This document shows, piece by piece, positions 4,495-47,141 of a stretch of 64,000 nt of DNA. The DNA comes from Paludibacter sp. (GTDB lineage Bacteria > Bacteroidota > Bacteroidia > Bacteroidales > Paludibacteraceae), in NCBI GenBank assembly GCA_028692715.1, contig JAQUWU010000008.1, forward strand, positions 86,184 through 150,183. The letters are read 5' to 3'. The notes under the pieces are model-generated. The model was not told the DNA's origin. It made no database searches and saw only the letters and a list, made by a program, of their open reading frames with translations. A program made the translations under genes and the position numbers. How positions within the stretch are numbered: position 1 is the stretch's first letter; every line of letters starts with the position of its first letter.

Positions 4495-4553
4495 GTCTAT
4501 TAAACAAAAAAAACCATTTGAAATATTTCAAATGGTTTTTTTGTTTAATAGAC
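4495..4553. terminator. Bidirectional terminator, near-perfect 59-bp palindrome
   Basis: Arms 4495-4524 and 4525-4553 are complementary over 29 bp with no loop and only one unpaired A. The sequence contains A8 on one side and T7 on the other, so it can terminate both the lipoprotein gene (+) and the exb operon (-), whose stop codon lies 2 nt away. Confidence 0.85.
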
Positions 4554-15699: not shown

Positions 15700-16647
15700 A
15701 TGAAAAGATTCTTTCAATTAACTTTGTTGGGAATTATGACCATTTTTACATGTGCTATTGCTCAGGTAAGTTCTTCTAAATGGCAATCACATCCAATTGC
15801 CATTGATGGTGATGCTGAAGATTGGGAAACATCTCCACGGTTCTTTAACTCCGATTCGAAGATTCAATATGAATTCCGAAACGATGACATGAACTTGTAT
15901 TTAATTCTGAAAACAACAGATGATGTTATGCAAAAACAACTAATGCTTGCAGGATTTAATCTTCGGTTCAAGGTAAAAACTAAGCAGAAAATCACGGCAA
16001 GTATTGTTTTTCCGGGTAAAGAAGGTGGCATTGAGTCTCAAAAAGGTAAAAGATCAAACAAATCGGATTTTAGCCAAAATGATAGACCATCTATTGAATT
16101 AGTTGAGAGATTGGATACTGATGAAAGAATGAGGCCTAGAGAAATTGCATTACTCGATGGTTTTTTATTTAGTAAAGATACTATTACTTCGAATGCAGAT
16201 ACTGAAAACAATATTCGTTTTACTAACAGAGGAGGTAAAGAAAGTTCTATTTATGAATTCTCTATTCCGTTACGCGAATTCTTTGGTGCTGATTACAGTT
16301 TGGAAAACATTAGCACTATTCCTATCCTGCTTCAGGTAGTCATCAATGGCAAAACAGAAAGCGGAAGAAATAGCAGTTCACAAGGAGGTTCACGCAGTAG
16401 TGGAATGGGTGGAGGTTCAGGTGGTGGCCCAGGCGGTGGCTCTGGCGGAGGCTCTGGCGGAGGTCCTGGTGGGGGTTCCGGTGGTGGGCCTGGTGGAGGT
16501 TCAGGTGGTGGACCTAATGGAGGTTCAGGTGGTGGTGGCGATGAGATGGGGGGAACTCCACCATCAGGTAGCAATATGCCGGATGCCATGTCGATGGAAA
16601 AAAAATCTTTCAAAATATCGTTCTACTTGTTCGCAAACAAAAAATAG
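15700..16647 (+). CDS. Exported protein with Gly/Ser/Pro-rich C-terminal tract
   Basis: 315 aa. Signal peptide about 1-21 (ending CAIAQ). Residues ~25-215 look like a DOMON/CBM9-like beta-sandwich of the type used by periplasmic or surface sugar/haem binding proteins (IAIDGDAEDW, IQYEFRNDDMNLYLILKTTDD); this is a tentative reading. Residues ~225-290 are almost only Gly, Ser and Pro in imperfect GGGSGGGP repeats (coding DNA 16376-16570), a flexible linker or stalk, followed by a short tail ending KKSFKISFYLFANKK. Stands alone between ogt and the menaquinone cluster. A possible -7 box TACATTTG is at 15601-15608. Function unknown. Confidence 0.8.
   Translation: MKRFFQLTLLGIMTIFTCAIAQVSSSKWQSHPIAIDGDAEDWETSPRFFNSDSKIQYEFRNDDMNLYLILKTTDDVMQKQLMLAGFNLRFKVKTKQKITASIVFPGKEGGIESQKGKRSNKSDFSQNDRPSIELVERLDTDERMRPREIALLDGFLFSKDTITSNADTENNIRFTNRGGKESSIYEFSIPLREFFGADYSLENISTIPILLQVVINGKTESGRNSSSQGGSRSSGMGGGSGGGPGGGSGGGSGGGPGGGSGGGPGGGSGGGPNGGSGGGGDEMGGTPPSGSNMPDAMSMEKKSFKISFYLFANKK
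16376..16570 (+). repeat. GGT-rich minisatellite-like coding repeat
   Basis: Imperfect GGAGGTTCAGGTGGTGGCCC-type units, about 24 bp long and in frame, encode the Gly/Ser/Pro tract of the gene at 15700. The purine skew is far above that of the neighbours. Confidence 0.8.
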
Positions 16648-16674: not shown

Positions 16675-16717
16675 AAAACAAAGTCACATTTCATAAATTG
16701 AAATGTGACTTTGTTTT
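16675..16717. terminator. Bidirectional terminator
   Basis: A perfect 19-bp inverted repeat (16675-16693 and 16699-16717) with a 5-nt loop lies between two convergent genes. The arms start with AAAAC and end with GTTTT, so T-rich tails exist both ways. Confidence 0.85.
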
Positions 16718-16882: not shown

Positions 16883-17956
16883 TCAATTAAATAAAATTTT
16901 ATCGAGAGTTTCTTTTCTTAAAATTTTATTGCCTGCTGTATAAACAAAATTTTCTGTAGAATAAACAGCTTTAGGAATTTCAAATTTACTAAGTATTCGT
17001 TCAAATTCCATTTTCAAATTTTGTTCAATTAATTCGGTATAAAGATTTGTCTCCAATATTAATATAACTTTATTCTCCAAAATTTCGTCAGGCACAGAAC
17101 TAATAAAAAAGTTGGTAAGAATAATTCCCTCCAGTTTTTTTTCTATTTGTTCAGGGTGAACTTTCACTCCTCCAGTATTAATTGTAGTATCTATACGTCC
17201 CAACCAACGGAAAGAATTTTTATCAATAATTTCGACAAAATCATTGGTTGTAATTTCATTTTCGAGCAAATGCGAGACACTAATTGCAAGGCAATTCCGT
17301 TCATCTAATCGAATAGAAATATCTTTTAATACCGTAAAACAATCCTGTTTATTTTTACCGTTAAACTGCCGCAATGCTATATGCGAACAGGTTTCGGTCA
17401 TACCATAGGTTTCGTAAAGCTCTGAAGATAAGTCTTTCGAAAGTTGTTCTAACTTACCGGTTACCGGGCTTCCACCCACAATTATTTTCTGAATATGCTT
17501 TGTTTGCAAACTCCCTACCGAATGAAAAAGTTGATAAGGCGTAATAGCAGCAAAATCAATTTCAATATTTATTTCTTCAAAAGGATTCGCCTTGGGTTCT
17601 ACACAAATAAGATTAAAACCACCTACAATAGCACGAACCAACATCATTTTTCCTGCAATGTAAGTTGCCGGTAGGCAAAGTAAAGCAGTCGATGTTGAAT
17701 TTAGTCCAAAAAACTGATTTGTCATTTCGGCAGAATTACGCATAGCAGTTTTAGTAAGCTTAATTTCTTTGGGTTTTCCGGTTGAGCCCGAAGTGTGAGC
17801 AAGAATAAAATTTGTTTCATCAAACCAATTCAGAAGAAAATCATACATTACGTTATGCCACGAGTCTTTCAATTCATTTGAATAGAACAATTTATCGAGA
17901 TCTTCTTTATCAAAAACTTTTCCGTTAATTTGTATAGTTTGAACTGAATTATTCAT
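16883..17956 (-). CDS. menE: o-Succinylbenzoate--CoA ligase
   Basis: 357 aa, short compared with E. coli MenE (451) but usual for Bacteroidota. ANL superfamily: AMP-binding motif AHTSGSTGKPKEI at 53-65, ETYGMTETCSHIA near the middle, the hinge WLGRIDTTINTGGVKV, and a C-terminal domain ending with the catalytic Lys region (AGNKILRKE). Activates o-succinylbenzoate with CoA for naphthoquinone ring closure in menaquinone synthesis. Overlaps the upstream Bro-N gene by 8 bp; menC and menA lie further upstream on the same strand. Confidence 0.93.
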   Translation of the reverse strand: MNNSVQTIQINGKVFDKEDLDKLFYSNELKDSWHNVMYDFLLNWFDETNFILAHTSGSTGKPKEIKLTKTAMRNSAEMTNQFFGLNSTSTALLCLPATYIAGKMMLVRAIVGGFNLICVEPKANPFEEINIEIDFAAITPYQLFHSVGSLQTKHIQKIIVGGSPVTGKLEQLSKDLSSELYETYGMTETCSHIALRQFNGKNKQDCFTVLKDISIRLDERNCLAISVSHLLENEITTNDFVEIIDKNSFRWLGRIDTTINTGGVKVHPEQIEKKLEGIILTNFFISSVPDEILENKVILILETNLYTELIEQNLKMEFERILSKFEIPKAVYSTENFVYTAGNKILRKETLDKILFN

Positions 17957-18776
17957 TTTTATTCTTCAAAACATTTTTAGCATTTAATGGCGAAATAACT
18001 TTTTTCCCAGTTCTGGATTCTAATTCTTCACGGGCAACACGTGCAACATTTCCTCCTTGCTTTGCAACTTTTATGTTATCTTCAAAAGTATCGGGTTCAA
18101 CTACCTGAGAAATATCTTTGGTTGAAGCTTCTGCTAACATATTTAGAATCAATTCTGTATTCGTCATATTATCACGAAGATTTTCTTTTTTCAATCCCTT
18201 AAATTGTTTGTATTCCTTTGTGCTCCTATCTGCCCAAGCCCTTGTAATTATATCGGTCAAAGTTGCAAATTGTTGCCCCTCCTGCATTCCTCGTTTCTTC
18301 CACTCATCAGTTAATTCTTTACGTACTTCGAGACTTTTAAGTCGTTGATTAATCCAATTTTCAGAATAGCCCAACTGCATATATTGCTCCATAGCCCTAT
18401 CGATAGTAAGTTCAGGATCTTGCATTTCGTCAAGTCTTTCCGAAGCAATTTGTGCCAGCCAACCTTTAAAAGGCTCTGCTTTAGGTGAAGGAATGGATTG
18501 AATTAAACGAAAAAGTTGTTCTGTATCAGCTACATCTGTCATTCTCATTTTTCCATCAATTGCTTGCATTTTCAAACCGTTACAATTTGTAACGGTTTGA
18601 TTTCCTTCTGATAACAGCCTCTTTTTCAGCACTCTCCAGTAAACCTGTGGGTTTTCACTATCAGTTAACACAGCAATAACATCAACAATAGATATATACC
18701 ATTTTTCTAATTCGTCGTCCCAAACAGTTCGAATTTTTTTATCTTCAAAAATTTTCAATGCATCTTTTTTTGTCAT
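17949..18776 (-). CDS. Bro-N domain protein (BRO/DinD-like), passenger in the men cluster
   Basis: 275 aa from the ATG at 18776 (MTKKDALKIFEDKKIR); the frame extends 24 codons upstream into sequence unlike the family. Bro-N DNA-binding domain about 1-110 (WYISIVDVIAVLTDS, MRMTDVADTEQLFRLIQSIPSPKAEPFKGWLA split over it), then a helical region, ending with ARVAREELESRTGKKVISPLNAKN as in DinD-like proteins. Such proteins are phage antirepressor relatives and occur as orphan genes in Bacteroidota. It sits between menC and menE, unrelated to menaquinone. Codons 60-68 form a perfect 27-bp palindrome (18573-18599). Function unknown; a DNA-binding role is inferred from the domain. Confidence 0.85.
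   Translation of the reverse strand: MTKKDALKIFEDKKIRTVWDDELEKWYISIVDVIAVLTDSENPQVYWRVLKKRLLSEGNQTVTNCNGLKMQAIDGKMRMTDVADTEQLFRLIQSIPSPKAEPFKGWLAQIASERLDEMQDPELTIDRAMEQYMQLGYSENWINQRLKSLEVRKELTDEWKKRGMQEGQQFATLTDIITRAWADRSTKEYKQFKGLKKENLRDNMTNTELILNMLAEASTKDISQVVEPDTFEDNIKVAKQGGNVARVAREELESRTGKKVISPLNAKNVLKNKNE
18573..18599. repeat. 27-bp perfect palindrome inside the Bro-N gene
   Basis: Two 13-bp arms around one central base (half-site CAAACCGTTACAA). In the coding strand it is exactly nine codons, QTVTNCNGL, residues 60-68, just before the IDGK segment. Confidence 0.9.
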
Positions 18777-18874
18777 AATTATAGAATTTAGAGTCAGATT
18801 GTCAACAACAAATATAGTGAAAATTAAGACTATAGATGAAAACAACAAGCAGAATTTATCAACAAAATATCAAA

Positions 18875-19912
18875 TTACAATATTGAGCTTACATCCCAGT
18901 TATTCTGAGTATTATAAAATAATTTTGCATCCCTAATTTCAAGTGGTGATGGAATATTATTGTGATATAATTGCCCTGTTCCTAGCCCTTGAGGCATATC
19001 AGAATTAAGCGTGTAAGTCCATTGTGCAATGGCATTCAGTCCTATATTTGATTCTAAGGCAGAAGTAACCCACCAATTTATATTATGCTTGTTTGCCTGT
19101 AAAATCCATTCTTCAGAAGCTTCAAAACCACCCAGCAAACTTGGTTTTAATATAATATATGCCGGTTTTATTTTTTCTAAGATAAATTCTTTTTCAGTAG
19201 ATTTTACGCCAATCAATTCTTCATCCAACACAATGGGAATAGGCGAATGCTGACAAAGCTCAGCCATAGCATCAAACTGTCGGGGTTTAATGGGTTGTTC
19301 TATAGAATGAATCTCTAATTTTGAAAGTCGTTCGAGTTTTTCCAATGCATTTTCAGTAGAAAATCCTCCATTTGCATCCAATCGAATTTCAATATCATCT
19401 GCCGAAAATTGTTTTCGAATGTTTGAAATAATTTTCAGTTCAGTTTCAAAATCAATAGCTCCTACTTTCAGCTTTATGCAATGATAGCCGATTTCAATCT
19501 TTTCACGGATTTGCTTTTGCATAAAATCCTTATCGCCCATCCACACCAAACCGTTGATGGGAATTCCGGCTTTTCCCTCAGAAAACTGACTTTGGAATAA
19601 TCGTTTTGAACCATTCACTTTTACATCGAGTAAAGCTGTTTCCAAGCCAAATGCAATGGATGGATATTCAGAAAAATCGAAGGAATCAGGCGCAATACCT
19701 TCATTCAATAATAGACAAACCTCCTCTAACTTTTGATCATAAGTCTCTTGAGGATCAATACTTAAATTAGGAATCGTAGAACACTCACCAATTCCTTTCA
19801 CTCCATCTTGTTCCAGAATGATAAACGAAGATGGTTTCTGTAACAAAACCCCACGCGAAGTTCCGGCAGGGAATTTGAAATTAAGATTGTAATTTAAATA
19901 ATTTGCTTTCAT
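18875..19912 (-). CDS. menC: o-Succinylbenzoate synthase
   Basis: 345 aa, enolase superfamily. Dehydrates SHCHC to o-succinylbenzoate. Seen: catalytic Lys in CIKLKVGAIDFE, metal ligands in IRLDANGGFS (Asp), SIEQPI (Glu) and IVLDEELIG (Asp), and the second Lys in IILKPSLLGGF. This is the full set for the OSBS/MLE group. The ATG at 19912 overlaps (ATGA) the stop codon that the upstream RhuM-Fic gene would use if its frameshift were restored. Part of menA - menC - menE on the minus strand with two foreign genes interposed. Confidence 0.95.
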   Translation of the reverse strand: MKANYLNYNLNFKFPAGTSRGVLLQKPSSFIILEQDGVKGIGECSTIPNLSIDPQETYDQKLEEVCLLLNEGIAPDSFDFSEYPSIAFGLETALLDVKVNGSKRLFQSQFSEGKAGIPINGLVWMGDKDFMQKQIREKIEIGYHCIKLKVGAIDFETELKIISNIRKQFSADDIEIRLDANGGFSTENALEKLERLSKLEIHSIEQPIKPRQFDAMAELCQHSPIPIVLDEELIGVKSTEKEFILEKIKPAYIILKPSLLGGFEASEEWILQANKHNINWWVTSALESNIGLNAIAQWTYTLNSDMPQGLGTGQLYHNNIPSPLEIRDAKLFYNTQNNWDVSSIL

Positions 19913-20055
19913 TTACTTCTATTTAAAATACTTATTATCAAATTAACAATCACATTCATTTCTTCTGTTTGACTAGTTGCAACAAATAAAGTAAGGGCTG
20001 CTAAGGCTTCATTACTTATAACTGGCTTGTCATCAGTGTAAAGTAAATTATTTTA
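19909..20055 (-). pseudogene. Out-of-frame C-terminal part of the RhuM-Fic gene
   Basis: The minus strand reads NNLLYTDDKPVISNEALAAL, then a further helical stretch ending NLIISILNRSK and TGA at 19911-19909. This is the expected end of RhuM-Fic proteins, shifted by one base from the upstream part. The TGA overlaps the menC ATG as ATGA, which suggests that the unshifted gene was translationally coupled to menC. Confidence 0.8.
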
Positions 20056-20867
20056 TTTAAAAAGAGGAGGAAACAAGCAGCACCAATCCGCTTGTTTCCA
20101 TCAACAAATGAATGATTCTTTACGATTAAATACAAAAGAACGGCTGTTTTTCGTTCTATACTAGGATATAATTCTTTTCCATCAAAGCTTTGTTGGATTT
20201 GATTAATTGGACTATCAAATGTTTCATCTTTTGGTAATGCAAAAACATCAAAATTGAAGTCTGAGCGCATTTTTTTTATTAATTCAAGATATTCATTACT
20301 GGTTGGATATTCAACAATTCGAATTGTATTTCCATTTTTATCAAGCATTTGATGGTCAAAGTCATCAAGTAAATCAAGTCCTTTTGCAAAAACTTTCAAC
20401 ATTTCACTTTCTTCGTCAGTAGCTTGTTGATTAATAGCACGACTTAAGATTCGGATTCCTGTTTTCAGATATTCTACTTCTTGTTGCTTTTCTTTTAATC
20501 GATTTTCATTAATGGCGTATCCCTGAACCAGATAATCCTTTAATCGTTGTGTTGCCCATTGACGGAATTGAGTTGCTTGTTTAGAATTCACTCTATAACC
20601 TACAGATAGAATCACATCCAGATTATATAAGTTCATCTTGCGATTCTTTCCATCTGCAGCAACCTGTTCCAAAATGGAACAGGTTGAAATCTCATCCAAT
20701 TCTTCAGATTGATATATGTTCTGAATGTGTTTTACAATTGCAGGTCGATTAACATTATAAAGCGAAGCTAAAGTATGTGCATTAAGCCATACAGTCTCAT
20801 TTTCAAATTTAACCTGAATTTCTGAACCATATTTAGTTTTATAAACCTGAATCTCTCCTTTGTTCAT
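20016..20867 (-). CDS. RhuM-type N-terminal domain fused to Fic/Doc domain, 3' end frameshifted
   Basis: 283 aa as read. Residues ~10-110 are RhuM/KilA-N-like (VWLNAHTLASLYNV, MNLYNLDVILSVGYRVNS, ATQFRQWATQRLKDYL), then a helical linker and a Fic/Doc domain with HSFVDGNKR at 252-260, the AMP/phospho-transfer motif. After LLFL the frame ends with an unrelated tail. In the next frame the family C-terminus continues (NNLLYTDD ... NLIISILNRSK) to a stop at 19909, so one A appears missing from an A run near 20050. Restored length would be about 319 aa. It is a passenger between menA and menC. Codons 61-69 contain a 27-bp palindrome. Could be a pseudogene, a sequencing error or phase-variable. Confidence 0.85.
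   Translation of the reverse strand: MNKGEIQVYKTKYGSEIQVKFENETVWLNAHTLASLYNVNRPAIVKHIQNIYQSEELDEISTCSILEQVAADGKNRKMNLYNLDVILSVGYRVNSKQATQFRQWATQRLKDYLVQGYAINENRLKEKQQEVEYLKTGIRILSRAINQQATDEESEMLKVFAKGLDLLDDFDHQMLDKNGNTIRIVEYPTSNEYLELIKKMRSDFNFDVFALPKDETFDSPINQIQQSFDGKELYPSIERKTAVLLYLIVKNHSFVDGNKRIGAACFLLFLNKIIYFTLMTSQL
20660..20686. repeat. 27-bp palindrome inside the RhuM-Fic gene
   Basis: 12-bp perfect arms (half-site CAACCTGTTCCA) around a 3-nt centre. It spans codons 61-69 (STCSILEQV), just before ADGK, the same place as the palindrome in the Bro-N gene, with a different sequence. Confidence 0.9.
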
Positions 20868-20924
20868 AGCATCAAAAACTTTAAATCTATTGTTTTACTT
20901 CATAAATTTCAGTTTCTGTTCAAT

Positions 20925-21818
20925 CTAAATCAAAAGTCCTATTCCAAATGTCAACGCAAATACTAAACTTGCTATGGATAAACGTGCTAATTCAGGATAA
21001 AGTTCCAACGCATTTTTATACGTAAATACTTTTTTTAGGTTCAAAAATAACAGAGGGAATGAAAATACAAATAACCATTGCCAGTCTGAATGATAATTCA
21101 TAAGTGTATAAATTATTGTCAGAAAAACAGCTCCAAGCACCAAAATCAAATGATAAAAAGCCGCTTTTTTTGTTCCAATTGCAACAACAATCGTTATTTT
21201 TCCAGCATTCTTATCCGCTTCATAATCGCGCATATTATTCATATTCAGCACTCCCGTGCTTAACAGACCAATTGCAGAAGCCGGCAATAACAAATCCCAA
21301 CGAAACGATTGGGTTTGTAAAAAATAGCTACCGATTACGCCGACCAAGCCAAAGAAAATAAACACAAAAATATCACCCAAGCCACGATAACCATACGGAT
21401 TTTTACCCACTGTATATTTTATGGCTGCTGCAATCGCCAATATACCCAATATGCCAAATATCAAAAGGTTAGTTATATCCATTCCCTGAGTTCCGATTAA
21501 AATAAGTAAACCGCCGGAAATAATACAGGATATTCCAATCACAATAATTCCATGCAGCATAGTTTTTGGCGTAATTTCGCCCGACTGAACCATGCGTTTT
21601 GGTCCAATGCGTTCGACAGTATCTTTCCCATTTACAAAATCACCATAATCATTTGCCATGTTCGAGAGTACTTGGAGCAGAATAGTTGTTAGAGCTGTCA
21701 AAGCAAACACCAACCAGCGAAATTTATCGTCAGCTAGTGCCAATAAAGTTCCCAATATAGTATTTGAGAGTGCCAAAGGCAACGTTTTCAATCGAAAAGC
21801 AGCAATCCAATTTTTCAT
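20925..21818 (-). CDS. menA: 1,4-Dihydroxy-2-naphthoate polyprenyltransferase
   Basis: 297 aa, UbiA superfamily, eight to nine membrane helices. First Asp-rich motif NDYGDFVNGKD near 55-65 followed by the RIGPKRMVQSGEI segment typical of MenA, and a second motif NNMRDYEADKNAGK near 190-205. Attaches the prenyl chain to DHNA in the inner membrane to give demethylmenaquinone. First gene of the men cluster in this window with its own promoter (21841-21869). menF/D/H/B are not here. Confidence 0.95.
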   Translation of the reverse strand: MKNWIAAFRLKTLPLALSNTILGTLLALADDKFRWLVFALTALTTILLQVLSNMANDYGDFVNGKDTVERIGPKRMVQSGEITPKTMLHGIIVIGISCIISGGLLILIGTQGMDITNLLIFGILGILAIAAAIKYTVGKNPYGYRGLGDIFVFIFFGLVGVIGSYFLQTQSFRWDLLLPASAIGLLSTGVLNMNNMRDYEADKNAGKITIVVAIGTKKAAFYHLILVLGAVFLTIIYTLMNYHSDWQWLFVFSFPLLFLNLKKVFTYKNALELYPELARLSIASLVFALTFGIGLLI

Positions 21819-47108: not shown

Positions 47109-47141
47109 ACATATAAAATAGCTTTGGGCTATTTTATATGT
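47109..47141. repeat. Perfect 14-bp inverted repeat of unknown role
   Basis: ACATATAAAATAGC (47109-47122) and its exact complement (47128-47141) around a 5-nt centre. No T-run follows in either direction, so it is not a standard terminator. Confidence 0.75.

Follow-up and report, generated by a model that had tools for sequence, protein, structure and literature searches.

What is a long palindrome doing inside the coding sequence of a gene, and why should two genes of one cluster each carry such a palindrome at nearly the same codon position but with different sequence? The question is raised by a stretch of 64,000 nucleotides (nt) of Paludibacter sp. DNA, hereafter the window (NCBI GenBank assembly GCA_028692715.1, contig JAQUWU010000008.1, positions 86,184 to 150,183 of the forward strand), in which a Bro-N-type gene and a RhuM-Fic gene are found within a men cluster. 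A reading made from the letters alone, which we call the sequence-only reading, had pointed out the two palindromes and suggested that each gene might carry its own binding site, a hairpin or a targeting tag, with protein and site changing together. We propose, with a probability of roughly 0.6, that each palindrome is the operator of the protein encoded around it, lies in the codons between recognition helix and wing, and most likely serves promoter-independent autorepression. Sequence comparison and predicted structures make it very probable that the protein binds the site in its own gene; the odds that autorepression is the main role are about even.

Both palindromes are real. That of the RhuM-Fic gene lies exactly where the sequence-only reading had placed it, and that of the Bro-N gene extends one base further at either end than reported, with arms of 14 rather than 13 base pairs (bp). 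The codons given for the Bro-N palindrome (around 60–68) hold; the RhuM-Fic palindrome, assigned to codons 61–69, starts in codon 61 and extends one base into codon 70. Each precedes an (A/I)DGK-type motif (AIDGK and AADGK), as had been noted, and chance is indeed a poor explanation, since 20 order-3 Markov shuffles of the 64 kb gave arms of at most 11 bp at loops of up to 3 nt. The window holds five perfect palindromes with arms of at least 12 bp and loops of up to 8 nt, these two included. The others, at 4507–4542 (arms of 18), 16675–16717 (arms of 19, between listed open reading frames, ORFs) and 47109–47141 (arms of 14), are perhaps terminators.

Homologues were gathered at 363 loci by genome and viral searches, and complementarity was scored in the aligned N-terminal domains with each position taken in turn as centre. 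Merging of identical N-terminal DNA reduced the RhuM ORFs from 292 to 284 and left the 101 Bro-N ORFs unchanged; ORFs gapped at the centre column (5/284 and 4/101) were excluded, giving 279 RhuM and 97 Bro-N genes. The RhuM loci span Bacteroidota, Planctomycetota, Spirochaetota, Pseudomonadota, Clostridia and Patescibacteria, among others. Relatives on viral contigs were confirmed by alignment-based scans; scans of viral contigs with single protein queries confirmed none.

A single centre stood out in each family, with a mean paired fraction over 12 pairs of 0.815 in RhuM (0.265 across centres, standard deviation (SD) 0.064) and 0.854 in Bro-N (0.254, SD 0.069). At this fixed centre at least seven of ten positions (k = 3–12) are paired in 247 of the RhuM genes and 90 of the Bro-N genes, and all ten in 147 and 41, respectively. 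The palindrome is shifted in 36 of the 39 exceptions (32 RhuM, 7 Bro-N), with arms of only 7 in L119_3 and L128_1, and the remaining three (L149_8, L232_3 and L356_10) have no palindrome of note in the region. Letting the register float raises the RhuM count to 274 of 276 at seven or more of ten, but this figure is inflated because, by our estimate, random sequence reaches seven about a quarter of the time over some 80 centres, and we rely on the fixed-centre counts. In one Bro-N subgroup (L340, L235, L236, L346, L351 and L232), whose helix starts YI[KH][KR], the palindromes are rich in G and their register is shifted; in L340 the arms are perfect over 17 bp.

Perfect pairing over the ten positions occurs in 53% of RhuM and 42% of Bro-N genes, compared with 0.6% and 0.4% of synonymous shuffles. 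All 200 of a gene's own shuffles are beaten in only 54/279 RhuM and 27/97 Bro-N genes, with 247 and 91 reaching the 95th percentile. The comparison of homologues with codon-shuffled controls that had been suggested thus reveals an excess of palindromes, and the suggestion that variable peptides at this place would be palindromic in DNA proved a good lead. The position is fixed and the sequence is not: 167 distinct 25-mers are found among the 247 in-register RhuM genes and 59 among the 90 Bro-N genes, many of the perfect sites having a 1-nt centre.

Using the in-register genes only, and working within strata of overall identity, we searched the protein columns that lie outside the site for those that predict the half-site. 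In RhuM, column 40 tracks bases k = 7–8, column 41 tracks k = 3–6, column 42 tracks k = 3 and 5, and column 45 tracks k = 3–5. In Bro-N, column 42 goes with k = 8–9, column 43 with k = 6 and 8–9, column 46 with k = 6–10, column 47 with k = 3–5, and column 51 with k = 2–4. These covarying residues all fall in the second helix of the predicted helix-turn-helix (41–53 in RhuM, 43–56 in Bro-N), and helix position maps broadly in order onto DNA position. The palindrome itself encodes the link from recognition helix to wing and, in RhuM, also the first wing strand (63–69). Columns 47, 46, 51 and 43 rank highest in Bro-N; column 42 comes after wing column 76 and column 40, the latter immediately ahead of the helix. 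In RhuM the order is led by wing columns 74 and 76, followed by 41 and 45, with 40 and 42 among the next and wing columns 71 and 78 also high; wing columns were set aside because their codons adjoin the palindrome.

The resulting code reads like chemistry. RhuM helices with K-S-T-I-S-R-H go with TGTTGCA, R-[ST]-V-I-x-[KR]-H with TGTGCA, I-S-E-H with CGG, and Q-N-I-x-[LIM]-H with AAG; in Bro-N, R-V goes with CGTTAC, R-K with CGTGAC, N-D and some S-D with TGTCCGA, and N-A with TGTCCCA. Among RhuM pairs less than 45% identical elsewhere and compared within frame, arm identity is 0.924 for the 49 pairs in which all four helix residues agree versus 0.335 for the 2899 in which none does. Disjoint sister pairs with differing sites (106 RhuM, 40 Bro-N) show positions changed on both sides and still paired in 182 cases versus 86 other changes in RhuM, and in 59 versus 41 in Bro-N. 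The helix code differs in 36/53 RhuM sister pairs with at least two compensated positions versus 15/45 with none, and in 12/14 versus 2/21 Bro-N pairs. A case in point is the Bro-N gene of a same-genus contig (L514), whose helix reads NYWKVLKNRL where that of the window reads VYWRVLKKRL. Eight substitutions separate its palindrome from that of the window; they fall at k = 8–11 as four compensated pairs, so that the palindrome is still perfect and its inner part unchanged, which is what the helix code derived from the alignments predicts. The site is no more diverged than the gene at large (72% identity to that of the window, against 73% for the whole gene). Covariation of half-site and recognition helix thus supports the earlier suggestion of an own binding site that changes together with its protein.

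Is it the DNA that is matched, or the peptide encoded by it? The same RhuM half-site is found in two reading frames. Cross-frame pairs that share at least three of four helix residues and are less than 45% identical elsewhere have an arm identity of 0.805 and a peptide identity of 0.045 (19 non-independent pairs); the arm identity of the 762 cross-frame pairs with no helix residue equal is 0.234. A helix packing against the peptide would match the peptide, and since the arm matches across frames instead, it is the DNA rather than the peptide that is matched.

The same procedure was extended to further families, with the KilA-N, ORF6N, MarR and LacI loci being the best matches per search, about 30 each. 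In DinD-type genes (104 distinct ORFs) 0.711 of 16 positions pair at the same centre, versus 0.256 (SD 0.049) across centres, with at least 6 of 9 outer pairs in 85 of the 104. KilA-N peaks at 0.926 (30 of 33 ORFs scored at the centre) and ORF6N at 0.912 (34 ORFs). MarR (30 ORFs) and LacI (28 ORFs), which are also helix-turn-helix families, reached maxima of 0.382 and 0.423 with no standout centre. The palindrome is thus a feature of this group, whose five Pfam families (KilA-N, Bro-N, ORF6N, RhuM and DinD) we take to be kin, and not of helix-turn-helix genes at large. Covariation in KilA-N and ORF6N (30 and 34 genes) was not used, one leading ORF6N column being nearly invariant.

Escherichia coli K-12 dinD contains a near-perfect 32-bp palindrome at nt 174–205 (14 pairs, one mismatch, two central bases). 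Ten E. coli alleles (L364–L373) comprise three of the K-12 type and seven with another N-terminal cassette; leaving out one short frame, the two types are 55–72% identical per 60 nt in the first four such segments (about nt 1–246) and 90–100% identical beyond. Of 5426 E. coli genomes, 2782 match one cassette, and the other is matched in 1880 at 80% coverage or more and in 2092 by any match. That two cassettes are common while the C-terminal part hardly varies would be in keeping with selection maintaining both DNA specificities.

Family assignments and predicted folds are consistent with a DNA-binding role. The Bro-N protein matches Pfam Bro-N (PF02498) at 42 bits (cut-off 25.6, E 1.5e-10), and RhuM-Fic matches Virulence_RhuM (PF13310) at 92.8 bits (cut-off 33.7, E 2.7e-26) over positions 1–79 only of the 252-position profile, followed by a Fic domain (Pfam E 1e-10). 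Predicted models of both contain the helix, turn, recognition helix and beta hairpin of a winged helix-turn-helix: helices (H) 30–38 and 43–56 with strands (E) 66–71 and 77–84 in Bro-N, and H30–37, H41–53, E63–69 and E75–81 in RhuM, at whole-chain predicted template modelling scores (pTM) of only 0.55 and 0.50. The six best matches of the Bro-N model in the PDB are DdrC chains (best E 1e-6, TM 0.31–0.41 by query length), and the NCBIfam DdrC profile matches the Bro-N protein at 3.7e-5, far below its curated cut-off. The RhuM model returned nothing from the PDB at E < 0.001, and a sequence search of solved structures at E 0.01 returned one Fic-type match for RhuM and none for Bro-N. PADLOC candidate-defence profiles match both proteins (PDC-S13 at 1.9e-135 for the Bro-N gene, PDC-S23 at 1.2e-98 and PDC-S05 at 5.4e-64), marking them as candidates for anti-phage defence. 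The RhuM-Fic frame has 283 amino acids, compared with about 330 in most full-length homologues, whose matches end at residues 271–276 (window 20016–20060); the 3' end of its Fic part thus looks broken or misread.

In the 4.85-Mb assembly of the window's own genome, the Bro-N site occurs only in its own gene within 3 mismatches of 18, and the RhuM-Fic site has one exact copy, the next best place having 3 mismatches of 18. In this genome the only evident target of each gene is thus the gene itself. The single copies rule out a dispersed palindromic repeat of the repetitive extragenic palindromic (REP) or Rickettsia palindromic element (RPE) type. Within the loci (flanks to about 1.5 kb), a match to the own site at 14 or more of 18 positions was found elsewhere for 8 of 337 genes (2.4%), compared with 3.3% for control sites; the two exact flank matches, both in L263, are one tandem duplicate viewed from both sides. 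An initiator of the lambda O type with internal iterons was rejected, as no second own-site copy exceeds chance in the locus and there is one genomic place.

In our preferred reading each gene would encode a winged-helix protein whose symmetric site of about 25–29 bp lies within its own coding sequence. A symmetric site and a helix-turn-helix domain together suggest a bound dimer, which, seated about 190 bp into the gene, would block RNA polymerase and limit the gene's own expression, although we are less sure of this step. Such a block would work behind any promoter and would thus suit genes that lodge in operons not their own, men being an example. The block may be lifted by the effector half (Fic, DdrC-like or DinD) on sensing damage or phage. 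Since specificity and target lie within about 90 bp, they would be inherited together. The reading draws on a palindrome that is family-wide, position-locked and diverse in sequence, and that covaries at the DNA level with helix residues. Of the marks of an operator, covariation provides a specific palindrome at the own gene matching the recognition helix; a site at or near a promoter is not found in the flanks scanned. We further lean towards regarding recognition of the own gene as a founding property of the KilA-N, Bro-N, ORF6N, RhuM and DinD superfamily, which would make its members, many of them mobile, portable modules with a readable code that police their own expression and copies. In each, the DNA that encodes the reading domain would at the same time be the main target of that domain in the genome.

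Several observations weigh against this interpretation. The two highest-ranking RhuM columns belong to the wing adjoining the palindrome, where coupling at the protein level is possible, and identity strata lessen shared ancestry without abolishing it. In DinD covariation is unclear: the two top columns (107 and 23) are nearly invariant and hence meaningless, with the third-ranked, column 35 (R or D/E), tracking t = 5. The commoner dinD cassette keeps the centre and outer arms, but 10/17 positions are paired versus 14/17 in K-12, and pairing is weaker inside, which is at odds with a strict rule. Many genes have imperfect pairing at k = 8–10. The search of the flanks of the 337 genes gave no copy of the site near promoters, so that repression must act inside the gene, which is a rarer mode. 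Finally, DdrC, the nearest solved relative, reportedly binds DNA without strong sequence preference.

Among other explanations, the best placed, which we nonetheless consider unlikely, is that the own-gene site lets a resident protein silence or mark incoming copies of the same specificity on a phage, plasmid or mobile gene, in the manner of phage immunity or plasmid incompatibility. Such exclusion would rely on the very binding event that autorepression does. The many specificities in RhuM and Bro-N, the relatives on viral contigs and the two frequent N-terminal cassettes of dinD would all fit such exclusion. Paralogues within a genome do not avoid shared half-sites: RhuM shows 4 of 95 versus 4.8 expected (not filtered for overlap), and Bro-N shows 1 of 28 versus 1.8, that one being a single gene in two overlapping loci. 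We take this as neither supporting nor refuting exclusion.

It is less probable still that one bound dimer seeds a DNA-bridging or silencing complex over the element, by DdrC-like compaction or ParB/parS-like loading. A single site in the own genome would suit nucleation, as would the long helical region that follows the winged helix in the RhuM model (H96–148) and the resemblance of the Bro-N model to DdrC; however, very different C-terminal halves (Fic, DdrC-like, DinD-type and short N-terminal-only ORFs) share the same site logic. Very unlikely, in our view, is a point of recombination at which the N-terminal DNA-binding domain is exchanged as a cassette, via a recombinase or gene conversion. 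The dinD types, which differ over their N-terminal part and are alike beyond it, recall such exchange, and so do copies of the DNA-binding module, N-terminal-only or broken, that stand in tandem before a longer family gene (L020/L275, L019, L008, L029, L244 and L307; in L020, two short ORFs of 136 and 148 amino acids lie ahead of one of 334). However, the Pfam profiles of the two window proteins include no recombinase domain, the dinD switch falls after the palindrome rather than within it, and covariation with helix residues would be left unexplained.

A hairpin in the mRNA, acting in translation control or as an RNase site, had been among the options of the sequence-only reading, and a perfect coding-strand stem of 12–14 bp would fold. 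Mismatches in distinct sites, however, show no special tolerance of G.U: in RhuM, 109 mismatch cells comprise 24 G.T on the coding strand, 39 A.C and 46 others, and in Bro-N 52 comprise 14, 13 and 25. Taken with the cross-frame match, this absence of a G.U bias indicates that the DNA is matched as a duplex, and many centres are of 1 nt; the mismatch types and the helix covariation lead us to reject the hairpin as highly improbable. A coincidence of coding constraint, or functionless palindromes perfected by the template-switch correction that can act on near-palindromes, has a negligible chance, for although the peptide alone, with random synonymous codons, gives a mean of 6.1–6.2 of 10 pairs, fewer than 1% of synonymous shuffles are perfect, the position is fixed in five families and not in MarR or LacI, and the link to the helix would go unaccounted for.

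The menA, menC and menE genes, whose names we adopt as presumed, form a cluster without either gene in five same-genus loci (L502, L503 and L505–L507), so that both look like passengers, as had been supposed. The L514 gene lies between menC and menE and encodes a protein 80% identical to that of the window. In L505 a different gene (475–1500, a 340-amino-acid open frame) lies between menA and menC, and this spot may thus take up passengers repeatedly. The last 8 nt of the window's Bro-N gene (17949–17956) are also the first 8 of menE, and a block inside Bro-N would thus also affect menE. Outside the cluster, an ORF at 15700–16647 of the window contains a long Gly/Ser/Pro-rich repeat tract.

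Table 1 Coordinates in the window of the two genes, their palindromes and the predicted elements around them (aa, amino acids)
Feature	Position	Strand	Remarks
men cluster containing both genes	16883..21818	-	menA 20925-21818, menC 18875-19912, menE 16883-17956
Bro-N-type gene, 275 aa	17949..18776	-	ATG at 18776; predicted N-terminal winged helix, DdrC-like C-terminal half
Bro-N palindrome, 14-bp arms, 1-nt centre	18572..18600		Proposed operator of encoded protein
Bro-N predicted recognition helix, codons 43-56	18609..18650	-	aa 44, 45, 48, 49, 53 are family columns 42, 43, 46, 47, 51, covarying with half-site bases
Bro-N predicted wing hairpin, codons 66-84	18525..18581	-	Strands 66-71 and 77-84; column 76 (aa 78) goes with outer bases k = 10-11
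RhuM-Fic gene, 283-aa open frame	20016..20867	-	ATG at 20867; PF13310 and Fic profile matches
RhuM-Fic palindrome, 12-bp arms, 3-nt centre	20660..20686		Proposed operator of encoded protein
RhuM predicted recognition helix, codons 41-53	20709..20747	-	aa 41, 42, 43, 46 are family columns 40, 41, 42, 45, covarying with half-site bases
RhuM predicted wing hairpin, codons 63-81	20625..20681	-	Strands 63-69 and 75-81; first strand encoded by palindrome
Fic/DOC domain, aa 213-270 of RhuM-Fic	20058..20231	-	Profile match

If our reading is correct, five families would obey one rule, namely that the palindrome of a gene tells what its protein binds. This would supply a ready recognition code for a group of winged-helix proteins and render the specificity of many uncharacterised members predictable from their own genes. 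What the SOS protein DinD does in E. coli K-12 is, to our knowledge, not well understood, and the idea would be directly testable in that laboratory strain. More generally, an internal operator would be a device for mobile single genes, in which control travels with the gene and a promoter of its own is unneeded, and the stretch of protein encoded by it would have a sequence shaped by its role as DNA.

That proteins can bind inside their own genes is already known from lambda O and parS. Phage lambda O is a DNA-binding protein with the origin inside gene O, its N-terminal specificity and its target changing together between relatives; there several iterons and an AT-rich unwinding region serve replication, whereas here one palindrome was found in each gene and the C-terminal halves are Fic, DdrC-like or DinD-type. 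The parS site within spo0J/parB is reportedly palindromic, nearly invariant and present in further copies, whereas the sites described here differ widely between genes and the two of the window each occur once in their genome. Operators within coding sequence, such as lac O2 and gal OI, are reportedly auxiliary and bound by a repressor from another gene; here, in contrast, the DNA-binding domain's own codons contain the site, and no further one was seen nearby. The best match of the Bro-N model is DdrC of Deinococcus (PDB 8u0g, 7qvb and 7udi), and a palindrome of this kind is also present in the gene for E. coli DinD; the titles and opening lines of abstracts on DdrC and DinD, among the matches listed, mention no site in the own gene. 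Nor do the titles and abstract openings among the matches listed in the open-access literature, a scope that leaves out subscription journals and preprint servers, report such a self-site. In the LacI and GntR families, recognition codes have been built from correlations between amino acids and bases that were used to infer protein-DNA contacts (PMC2978694, PMC4494728). The sites in those families are, as we understand it, at regulated genes, whereas here they are in each gene's own coding sequence. The apparent novelty is a self-site that is locked in position within the codons for the DNA-binding domain, is common to five families and has diversified together with its reader.

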